This document shows, in pieces, positions 27,529 through 31,223 of a stretch of 40,771 nucleotides of DNA; within the stretch, counting starts at the first letter, position 1, and every line of letters begins with the position of its first letter. This stretch comes from Bacteroidota bacterium (GTDB lineage Bacteria; Bacteroidota; Bacteroidia; Chitinophagales; Chitinophagaceae). Location of the stretch: NCBI GenBank assembly GCA_029561305.1, contig JAKQJG010000316.1, positions 1-40,771 of the forward strand, read 5' to 3'. A program made the position numbers and the translations under genes. The notes under the pieces were generated by a model. The model was given only the letters and a program-made list of their open reading frames with translations. It was not told where the DNA came from and did no database searches.

Positions 27529-28650
27529 TTATGTTATTGAAATTATCTCTTGCCTCTTACTGATCATTTTTCCTATAGGTGTTGCAAATTTTTCAAATGC
27601 ATTTTGCTTCAATAAATTTATAACCTCATTGGCTGATGCAGGAGAAACAGCGATCAGTAAACCGCCACTTGTTTGTGGGTCTGCCAGTACCGCTTTTTGA
27701 AAATCAGTGATGGGTCCGATCTTCTCTCCATAACTGTCCCAGTTGCGGTGTGTACCACCAGGTATGGATTTGTTATCAATATAAAATGTGAGATCGTCTG
27801 TAATGGTGGGTATATTCTCAAATACAATTTCAGCACTCAGCCCGCTGCCTTCCGCCATTTCCACCAAATGCCCCAGCAGGGCAAAGCCGGTTACATCCGT
27901 CATCGCATTCACTCCTTTTATTTTCCCCAGCTGTTCACCAATTTTATTCAGCTGCATCATTTGCTTTGCCGCCATGCCTTTATGTTCTTCCTTTAAGAGG
28001 CCCTTTTTTTCTGCGGTTGTTAAAATACCAACGCCCAATGGTTTGGTTAAAAACAACCAATCACCATCCTGCGCTTTATTATTTTGTTTGATATCTTCAA
28101 TAGCAACAAAACCATTTACTGCTAAGCCAAAGATGGGTTCAGGTGAATCAATGCTATGCCCGCCTGCCAGGGGAATACCTGCTTCTTTGCAGATGCTGCG
28201 GCTGCCTTCAATTACTTTTTGGGCAACAGCCGGTGGCAATACATTAATGGGCCAGCCTAAGATAGCTATGGCAAGGGCAGGTTTTCCGCCCATCGCATAC
28301 ACATCACTGATAGCATTGGCCGAAGCGATCCTTCCAAACTCATAAGGATCATCAACAATAGGCATAAAAAAATCGGTGGTGGAAATCAACGCTGTGCCAT
28401 TACCAATATCATACACGGCCGCATCATCTTTGCTGTGATTGCCTACGATCAGTTTATCATTGTCGGGCATCGCAAAATTGCTGGCGAGTATTTCATCCAG
28501 CACTTTGGGTGAAATTTTGCAGCCACAACCGGCACCGTGAGAATATTTTGTAAGCTGAACCGCCCCCTCTAAATCTCCCCCAAAAGGGGAGACCTTAGAG
28601 CTTTCGATTGCAATTTTTTGTTCTTTGTTTATAGAAAATTTTTCATCCAT
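27529..28650 (-). CDS. selD: selenide, water dikinase (selenophosphate synthetase)
   Basis: Makes selenophosphate from selenide and ATP. From the ATG at 28650 the product is 373 aa. The active-site signature [11 protein letters not shown] (Cys42 as catalytic Cys, Lys45) is intact and is a Cys, not selenocysteine, form. Other PurM-like motifs: [19 protein letters not shown] and the [13 protein letters not shown] loop. Residues 19-30 ([12 protein letters not shown]) before the signature come from a palindromic repeat (28567-28600), absent from typical SelD. A longer frame upstream to 28737 overlaps the previous gene and is not supported. The start is 1 bp after that gene's stop, implying coupling. 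SelU upstream uses the product; no selA/selB/selC is present, so the local role is tRNA selenation. Confidence 0.95.
28567..28600. repeat. interrupted palindrome inside selD
   Basis: CTCTAA-2-CTCCCC-5-GGGGAG-3-TTAGAG, arms perfectly complementary. It lies in the N-terminal coding part of selD and is read in frame as [12 protein letters not shown]. The same CTCTAAATCTCCCC-type word is, as I recall, an abundant intergenic repeat in this phylum. Confidence 0.7.
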
Positions 28651-30013: not shown

Positions 30014-31168
30014 TTATTCCGTTTCAGTAATGCTTTCCTCCACATTGCTGTCATTGAGCAACAGGCCGGTATTTTCTTTTGCATTTACTTTTTCGGCTGA
30101 TATTTTCTTTATTAGTTCTACGGGGGATTCCCTGTTATAAAGCCCTTTTTCGTACCACTTGTCGTAATATTTCAGCAAGATGCGGAAACATTCTTTATGA
30201 TTGTCTTCCAGCAAAAAATTTACCGCATTTTTTGCTTCCAGCCCGCCCAGTCTTTTTTGTATGCGGATAATAGCGTTGACCAGTTTTTCCTTCCCTGCTT
30301 TTCCATACTCAACGGTAAGGTAATTTAATCTCTCTTCAAATGGGATGTCGAGAAATAAAATGTTGCTGTTCCTCATTTGTTTCCAAAAAGCATCGGGTAT
30401 TTTCAGATCTCCGATACGCTGGCTTTCATCTTCTATAAATGCTCGCTGGAGTACCTGGCCTGCCGTTACCTGGTGGCCTGCTATTTCATACAATTTTTCA
30501 GCCAGTAAATTTTCAAACATCTCCTGGGTTGGCTGTGCATTTTGTCCGATAGCACCAAAAGCTGATCCTTTGTGATTTGCCATTGCTTCCAGGTCAACTA
30601 CCGGAAGACCTGCCTCCTGCAACTGGTGCAGCACGATGGTTTTTCCAGAGCCGGTATAGCCACCCAATACAGTTAATGGTTGTGGTTTTTCAAACTGGCC
30701 TCTAACCCATTTCCGGTAAGCCTTATATCCGCCAATCAAGGTATACACTTTAAACCCATACAGATCAAGCAGCCAGGCAATACCTGCACTACGCATACCA
30801 CCCCGCCAGCAGTGAACCAGAACGTTTCTTGTTTCTTGTTTCTTGTTTGCTGTTTCTCGTTGGGAGCCTGCTGATTTACCTGGTGCTTTATCATTTAACG
30901 AGAAACAAGAAACATTGTCTTCTACGGCTTCTACGATGGCTTTCATCTTTACGCCAAAGTAATCAAGACCGATCTTGATGGCGGGTTGTTTGCCTTGTTG
31001 TTTGTATGCTGTGCCTACTACGGCTCTTTCGTCGTTGGTAAACAACGGCAGGTTGTAAGCCCCAGGGATATGTGCATGATCGTACTCACCCGGACTGCGT
31101 ACATCAAATACCGGGTTGGTTTGTACCAACTGTAAAAATTCTTCTATGGTAAGTTTTTGTATTGCCAC
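30014..31168 (-). CDS. selU: tRNA 2-selenouridine synthase (SelU/MnmH)
   Basis: Replaces the sulfur of 2-thiouridine at the tRNA wobble position by selenium, using selenophosphate from SelD. Start taken as GTG at 31168 (product 384 aa), just after the rho terminator; a GTG at 31204 would lie in its stem. N-terminal rhodanese domain: FDVRSPGEYDHAHIPGAYNL, with the active-site Cys120 in CWRGGMRSAG. A P-loop domain follows with GGYTGSGKT at 169-177 and VVDLEAMANHKGSAFG. Residues about 86-115, just before the rhodanese Cys strand, are an extra stretch (NDKAPGKSAGSQRETANK) encoded by the repeat at 30824-30914 and missing from E. coli SelU. Forms an operon with the 28652-30004 gene and selD. Confidence 0.95.
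   Translation of the reverse strand: MAIQKLTIEEFLQLVQTNPVFDVRSPGEYDHAHIPGAYNLPLFTNDERAVVGTAYKQQGKQPAIKIGLDYFGVKMKAIVEAVEDNVSCFSLNDKAPGKSAGSQRETANKKQETRNVLVHCWRGGMRSAGIAWLLDLYGFKVYTLIGGYKAYRKWVRGQFEKPQPLTVLGGYTGSGKTIVLHQLQEAGLPVVDLEAMANHKGSAFGAIGQNAQPTQEMFENLLAEKLYEIAGHQVTAGQVLQRAFIEDESQRIGDLKIPDAFWKQMRNSNILFLDIPFEERLNYLTVEYGKAGKEKLVNAIIRIQKRLGGLEAKNAVNFLLEDNHKECFRILLKYYDKWYEKGLYNRESPVELIKKISAEKVNAKENTGLLLNDSNVEESITETE
30824..30914. repeat. heptamer and inverted-repeat element inside selU
   Basis: Three tandem GTTTCTT heptamers (30824-30844), followed by an 18-bp arm (30844-30861) that pairs with 30897-30914 at 16 of 18 positions (right arm starts AACGAGAAACAAG); loop 35 nt. Together it accounts for about 30 in-frame codons that look like an insertion in SelU. 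Confidence 0.7.
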
Positions 31169-31190
31169 TTTTGAAACGATAAAAATACAA

Positions 31191-31223
31191 AAAGAAAAAG
31201 CCACCGGATCAATCAGTGGCTTT
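31191..31223 (-). terminator. Rho-independent terminator between rho and selU
   Basis: Minus strand: AAAGCCAC / GTGGCTTT (8 bp), 11-nt loop, then TTTTTCTTTTTG. It lies 20 nt after the rho stop and before the selU GTG. Confidence 0.75.

Follow-up and report, generated by a model that had tools for sequence, protein, structure and literature searches.

Palindromic in-frame segment in SelD of a Chitinophagaceae bacterium: a probable solo copy of a Bacteroidota mobile element with a nuclease-carrying form

To our knowledge, no enzyme has so far been tied to protein-coding palindromes, and we know of no nuclease-carrying form of the Rickettsia palindromic elements (RPE). Protein-coding palindromes have reportedly been described in Wolbachia too, and Suyama et al. 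2005 are said to have found palindromic repeats with coding potential in Methanocaldococcus jannaschii; those repeats are archaeal, whereas the element reported here belongs to Bacteroidota. RPE measure 105–146 bp and occur in frame inside conserved proteins and also between genes (PMC2229807). The present element is likewise a many-copy repeat that is read in frame inside conserved protein genes; however, RPE belong to Rickettsiales, whereas this element is found in Bacteroidota, is only about 36–45 bp long and has a long form that carries a nuclease. It thus behaves as RPE do, but its size and its host set it apart from them.

Other systems have to be compared as well. In REPtrons, short GC-rich palindromes flank a DNA-processing gene and spread as solos (PMC3733652). 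Here, too, short palindromes flank a DNA-processing gene and occur as solos, but the bracketed gene encodes a DUF559 nuclease and not a Y1 transposase, and the palindromes lead an in-frame life inside genes. Known EDxHD homing endonucleases ride in self-splicing introns or inteins, or are free-standing genes (PMC3943268). The DUF559 protein VsrA of Caulobacter is a Vsr-like PD-(D/E)XK protein studied as a putative mismatch-repair endonuclease (PMC12907096); the DUF559 domain described here shares these characters and is, unlike VsrA, proposed as part of a mobile element.

The window, i.e., the whole stretch of 40,771 nucleotides that was analysed, is contig C363 of a 4.83-Mb genome in 443 contigs. 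Its selD reading frame (Table 1) matches the NCBIfam model NF002098 from residue 30 with 518 bits (cut-off 299), can be aligned with E. coli SelD (3u0o) from residue 28 with an E value of 2.7e-125, and is the single SelD match in the genome. The first-pass annotation had described an interrupted palindrome near the start of this gene and a peptide of 12 residues read from it; its arms and coordinates agree exactly with the DNA, and the peptide is indeed read in frame in SelD. The palindrome is in frame with the SelD ORF, and since there is no ATG, GTG or TTG in frame between the palindrome and the SelD core, it must be translated. The hairpin has a predicted energy of -10.6 kcal/mol (z of -3.36), and as good a fold was obtained in 1 of 200 shuffles. 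The palindrome is real and translated, adding approximately 15 residues to a variable N-terminal stretch. Two genes away from selD, a protein with a rhodanese domain (Pfam) is encoded at 30014-31204 of the window (- strand), which we take to be the tRNA 2-selenouridine synthase MnmH; this would fit SelD.

Table 1. Features of the selD locus, in coordinates of the window, and records of altered elements in the CCA-adding enzyme.
Feature	Position or record	Strand	Remark
selD (selenide, water dikinase)	27529..28650	-	373 aa from ATG 28650, stop included
Interrupted palindrome CTCTAA..CTCCCC..GGGGAG..TTAGAG	28567..28600	not applicable	arms exact
Outer palindrome arms CTCTAA / TTAGAG	28567-28572 / 28595-28600		
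Inner palindrome arms CTCCCC / GGGGAG	28575-28580 / 28586-28591		
Second outer arm of the SelD palindrome	28595..28600	not applicable	arm comparison across the listed copies
Translated element, 15 codons	28561..28605	-	bounds from the consensus GAGTCTTCGnAAGTCTCCCCNNNNGGGGGAGATTTAGAGGGGGC of coding copies and the nearest SelD of the family, G045 (..KEIAIKLTQ..); 5' boundary approximate
Native variable N-terminal stretch of SelD, 15 residues	28606..28650	-	relatives vary here in length and sequence
Start of the conserved SelD core, 14 residues	28516..28557	-	directly downstream of the insertion
CCA-adding enzyme, interrupted, inverted and degraded elements	L350, L349, L348		

The first-pass annotation had named uniqueness of the word in the genome as a reason to reject its reading. 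The strict 34-bp word is indeed unique in the window's genome at up to 3 mismatches, which on those terms counts against a repeat, but the wider form is not: the word CTCCCCNNNNGGGGGAGRTTNRGAGGGGGC has five matches (four exact and one with 3 mismatches), and its reversed control 0. Besides SelD, three genes contain an in-frame copy of this wider form: that of a galactarate/altronate dehydratase (on C274), that of a DEXH helicase (on C331) and that of a carbon-nitrogen hydrolase (on C436, with the 3 mismatches). The fifth copy is at the edge of an ORF (C243). The three other genic copies are read in frames that differ from that of the SelD copy, and the family's frame bias, presented below, is not seen for the wider form in this genome.

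At the level of the family, the pattern CTCCCCN2-6GGGGAGATTTAGAGG is present in 31 of 394 genomes, with no match of the reversed control in any of them, which supports the initial proposal that a palindrome with dispersed copies was inserted, in frame, where the enzyme tolerates it, in the manner of RPE. With at most ten places considered per genome (G446 and G466 have 16 and 22 matches in all), the family set comprises at least 113 distinct copies. A broad scan over 84,980 species genomes gave at least 119 stretches with at least 128 copies, mostly from Mucilaginibacter, and 7 copies are common to both sets. Among the 113 family copies listed, 48 are interior to an ORF (of at least 150 aa, with the copy at least 30 residues from each end), 15 are near an ORF end and 50 are in no long ORF; among the 128 copies listed from the broad scan, 29 are interior and 80 are in no long ORF. 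The statement that such repeats are common between genes is true of the Mucilaginibacter-dominated set, whereas in the window's own family the 48 interior copies make up a larger share. Interior copies are concentrated in the 26-nt length class (45/72 of the copies listed, vs. 3/41 for other lengths).

The reading frame of these copies is strongly biased. Of the 48 interior family copies listed, 41 are read as VSPxGGDLEGA, 5 and 2 in two antisense frames and none in the fourth open frame; the corresponding p of ~2e-18 assumes that the four open frames are equally likely and that each copy is independent, both only roughly true, the copies not being independent. When each host site is given one vote, 39 of 44 are in the VSPxGGDLEGA frame (two of the 44 are added copies near an ORF end), as are 24 of the 29 interior copies listed from the broad scan. 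As copies were found by exact patterns, the similarity among them is partly ascertained. For the same reason a third-position conservation of 0.82–0.91 in the element vs. 0.24–0.51 in host flanks was dropped as biased, and an avoidance of TAA at one position of the interior copies was dropped as circular, those copies having been selected for an open frame. A target-site duplication was considered as well, since AGCT is seen by eye on both sides of the SelD segment, but the coding copies follow no common rule.

Host proteins assigned with NCBIfam include LeuRS, IleRS, MetRS, UvrA, AroA, the CCA-adding enzyme, IspG, NadB, ArgC, ArgB, SMC, PaaD, NuoD, NuoB, prephenate dehydrogenase, NAD synthase, MetH, CinA, PurH and adenine deaminase; for the host ORFs of L286 and L140, no NCBIfam family was found. 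The CCA-adding enzyme was followed within one genus, in 20 genomes picked independently of the presence of the element, 17 of them readable. Four carry the element in the same loop, and 13 are without it, with a loop of variable length. It is intact in G466, inverted in place in G446, degraded but in frame in G424 and, in G479, interrupted by a second palindrome with the frame still kept.

Several further features of the copies were observed. Non-genic copies of one genus (L288, L290, L294, L297, L298 and L300) have a 5' extension, TTTGTGCGTTAGCAAGTC, that includes an in-frame stop; genic copies have TCTTCGnAAGTC instead. A second palindrome type (PTLPGREG, SPTQPSPEGRAL) often stands directly before the element as a pair with it (L103, L136, L124, L151 and others). 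Among the matches listed, the exact word is also present in the rumen records L159, L172, L173 and L187, labelled Prevotella, Proteobacteria, Bacteroidaceae and Prevotellaceae, which we read as either transfer or mislabelled contigs.

The nuclease-carrying form was not foreseen by the first-pass annotation, and it came up unexpectedly in domain searches, which placed DUF559 next to the palindrome in IcmF, in LeuRS and in adenine deaminase. In a profile search, LeuRS, IleRS and other proteins contained a DUF559 with the palindrome on both sides, and free-standing DUF559 ORFs of 158–167 aa appeared beside or between such palindromes. In LeuRS, MetRS, MetH, CinA, AroC, IcmF or adenine deaminase, the palindromes form pairs, usually inverted, which bracket an in-frame, Vsr-like DUF559 (referred to as composites). 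Pfam DUF559 was sought in 44 genomes, hand-picked as 23 of the 31 palindrome-positive ones and 21 negatives, and nearly all strong matches were taken with their flanks. All 23 positive genomes have matches (110 in all) vs. 10 of the 21 negatives (18 in all), where negative means without this palindrome subfamily, as some of these genomes hold composites with other palindromes (L385, L387, L403 and L407). G251, with 7 palindrome copies, has yet only two weak DUF559 matches.

Out of 112 DUF559 domain segments, both flanks are readable in 103. Inverted repeats exceeding all 60 shuffles flank 69 of these 103 segments, both in ORFs of at least 300 aa (36/52) and in ORFs of 100–299 aa (32/47), and are absent from the other 34. 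The sequence of the palindrome follows the lineage of its DUF559 (Mantel r of 0.457, 0 of 2000 permutations), also among pairs with less than 60 % identity (r of 0.308, 0 of 2000 permutations), in both cases with 60 of 100 segments used.

Composites add approximately 150 codons to their hosts; in LeuRS of G304, residues 317-475 stand in place of four residues of the Thermus enzyme. The motif E, D, E-x-D-G, H is kept at 96–100 % in fused and free copies, and the fused domain is under purifying selection (pN/pS of 0.20–0.38 in five host groups). An AlphaFold2 model of the domain (pLDDT 89) found 3hrl as the best Foldseek match in PDB, followed by RAP-type mitoribosomal proteins and 3r3p, the catalytic domain of I-Bth0305I (probability 1.00, E value of 2.2e-3), while the match to 1vsr was weak (E value of 0.34); according to this model, the DUF559 core is predicted to have a Vsr-like nuclease fold. 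A model of a composite-bearing LeuRS segment reached a pLDDT of 36 and was discarded. The predicted fold is thus shared with the Vsr-like EDxHD enzyme I-Bth0305I and, as with that enzyme, the pattern is that of a selfish nuclease, with conserved genes hit at the same site across genomes. Unlike in EDxHD homing endonucleases, no Hint or intein domain was found in the composites L399 and L248 (Pfam at E 0.01 gives DUF559 and synthetase domains only), nor, at the stricter NCBIfam cut-offs used for the other composites, an intein domain in these; judged by the reading frames, host protein and nuclease appear to be translated as one, without an intein.

Other arrangements of the domain were recorded. 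LeuRS of G304 (L433, C60) holds three insertions: a composite with DUF559, the solo SESEVSSLGGDLEGA and, in degraded form, VPSLGGDLGEA. In four genomes (L447, L427, L431 and L424), a palindrome joins DUF559, in frame, to the N-terminus of acetylglutamate kinase (name tested for L431), an N-terminal type of site like that of SelD. One site of chorismate synthase carries DUF559 composites in six genomes (L394, L406, L421, L430, L375 and L382; name tested for L430).

At several sites, the same position is seen in different states. The middle site of MetRS is empty in G308, holds a solo in G379, G027 and G309, and a composite in the window's genome, whereas the Rossmann site of MetRS is empty in four and holds a composite in G308. 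The TMPG site of LeuRS is empty, solo or composite in different genomes, and MetH, CinA and adenine deaminase have solo and composite at the same codon position. The composites at site A of LeuRS belong to more than one palindrome type. Palindrome-DUF559-palindrome is present in LeuRS of two Mucilaginibacter genomes, while at the same place Mucilaginibacter sp. PPCGB 2223 (L211) has a single, fully symmetrical in-frame palindrome made of the left and right outer halves. This could be what loss of the nuclease core would leave, or else the state before the core arrived. In most copies listed, only one side has the CTCTAA arm; among the 113 and 128 copies listed, the complete arm on both sides is present only in the SelD copy and in this LeuRS. 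It is this trait of the SelD palindrome that the first-pass annotation had picked out.

From these comparisons of sequences, we consider it quite probable that the segment in SelD represents a short palindromic mobile element of Bacteroidota, present there in frame as a solo. In full, this element would be palindrome-DUF559-palindrome, free-standing or read in frame inside host enzymes, and we infer that DUF559 drives the movement of the element. As the double outer arm is common only to the SelD and PPCGB 2223 LeuRS copies among those listed, a footprint left by the nuclease-bearing form is the most economical guess for SelD, although we hold it tentatively, with somewhat less than even confidence. 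To hypothesize further, and with evenly balanced expectations, the element may represent a new class, in which a DUF559 nuclease with lineage-specific palindromes would home into codons of core enzymes without splicing and leave in-frame footprints, the SelD segment being one. The nuclease would cut alleles or sites that are without the element, and repair would then copy the element into the cut allele, with the palindromic ends serving as recognition or fold-back ends and as part of what the nuclease recognises. Insertions would persist only where the peptide is tolerated, so that selection would confine them to loops and termini that can take them and to a reading frame with a soluble peptide, and solos such as that of SelD would be either short insertions of the ends or footprints after loss of the nuclease core between the palindromes.

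The strongest competitor is a passive coding palindrome of the Rickettsia type that is unrelated to DUF559, where nuclease genes merely favour palindromes or share tolerant sites with them. Within this palindrome subfamily, solos far outnumber composites, no composite is known at many of the sites with a copy, and the cognate nuclease was not found in the window's genome, all of which suits such a palindrome. DUF559 has 5 matches in that genome, two of them at contig ends and one inside MetRS, and no SelD-type palindrome was found beside any readable copy, so the copy in SelD could stem from recombination with another strain or could be an old remnant. The MetRS of this genome (L399, G000:C278:56500-61000) has its in-frame DUF559 between the palindrome-like peptides SPNPSEGGA and NPLLEGREA; at a second site, occupied in G466 by the solo VSPMGGDLEGA, it has another peptide of palindrome-like type. 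We nevertheless regard a passive palindrome as unlikely, since palindromes stand at both ends of DUF559, palindrome and nuclease lineages covary, and solo and composite occupy identical codon positions in five proteins.

Less probable still is that a RAYT (Y1 tyrosine transposase) spreads the palindrome as a REP element, the copy in SelD being a stray intragenic REP. The palindrome is short and dispersed, is often intergenic among the Mucilaginibacter copies listed, and Y1_Tnp is present in the window's genome (5 matches) and in 5 of the 7 copy-bearing genomes searched. However, among 28 Y1_Tnp loci (5 from this genome and 23 from others, with ~1.5 kb on each side), no RAYT gene is flanked by the element, which occurs once, ~1 kb from the gene (L273), and some of the Y1_Tnp genes are flanked by other short palindromes. 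Furthermore, there is no Y1_Tnp match in G012 (4 copies, genome only 72 % complete) or in G231 (2 copies). Because these loci and the genomes without Y1_Tnp do not fit, mobilisation by RAYT was rejected as the main reading. The ends of the element consensus, read by eye, have no GTAG or CGTC tag. The other palindromes, of the type CCCC..GGGG around the RAYT genes of L257, L261 and L265, are a separate REP-like system.

A hairpin lying ~45–85 nt downstream of the start codon could also be a functional N-terminal feature of SelD, either as a regulatory structure or as a useful peptide, and the relatives of SelD bear on this directly. A readable start is available for 73 of them, i.e., 28 family members, 29 congeners and 16 more (those readable among 20 fetched and picked for long frames). 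Their N-terminal region varies in length, and the inserted residues are present in 0 of the 73, contrary to what would be expected if all relatives carried them; together with the three other in-frame copies in the same genome, this backs the insertion proposed at the outset. G045 has KEIAIKLTQFSHG opposite 29 residues of the window's SelD, which suggests approximately 15 added codons. A related palindrome at the same place is seen only in the congener G151 (L496), whose SelD reads ALPTGGGLEVALTQYSHG and whose DNA contains GGGGGAGGTTTGGAGG, the right half of the wider palindrome, along with a doubtful degraded one in the family member G012 (L020); accordingly, this place in SelD may be hit repeatedly by palindromes. 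With the residues missing in all readable relatives and the same sequence present in unrelated genes, a function in SelD is very improbable. A chance palindrome or an artefact of the 443-contig assembly is hardly credible, in view of the shuffles, the reversed controls and the same element in complete or near-complete genomes (G231 with 1 contig, G027 with 10 contigs) and named Mucilaginibacter isolates.

In open PubMed Central, which leaves subscription journals and preprints largely outside, we found no prior account of the element, its peptides, palindrome-bracketed DUF559 or in-frame palindromes in Bacteroidota. In-frame palindromes are known from Rickettsia, and their link to DUF559 is apparently undescribed. 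The solo copy proposed for SelD would belong to an element that accounts for unusual insertions seen in LeuRS, MetRS, AroC and further Bacteroidota proteins from automatic annotation. Its copies are numerous and occur in bacteria that can be cultured; there are a candidate enzyme and cognate ends, as well as a natural series of empty, solo and nuclease-bearing alleles of the same enzyme. The entry of selfish DNA into a core gene, and its persistence there in frame with no splicing, thereby become open to test. The nuclease-bearing in-frame element would be a new class, provided that it moves in the way proposed.
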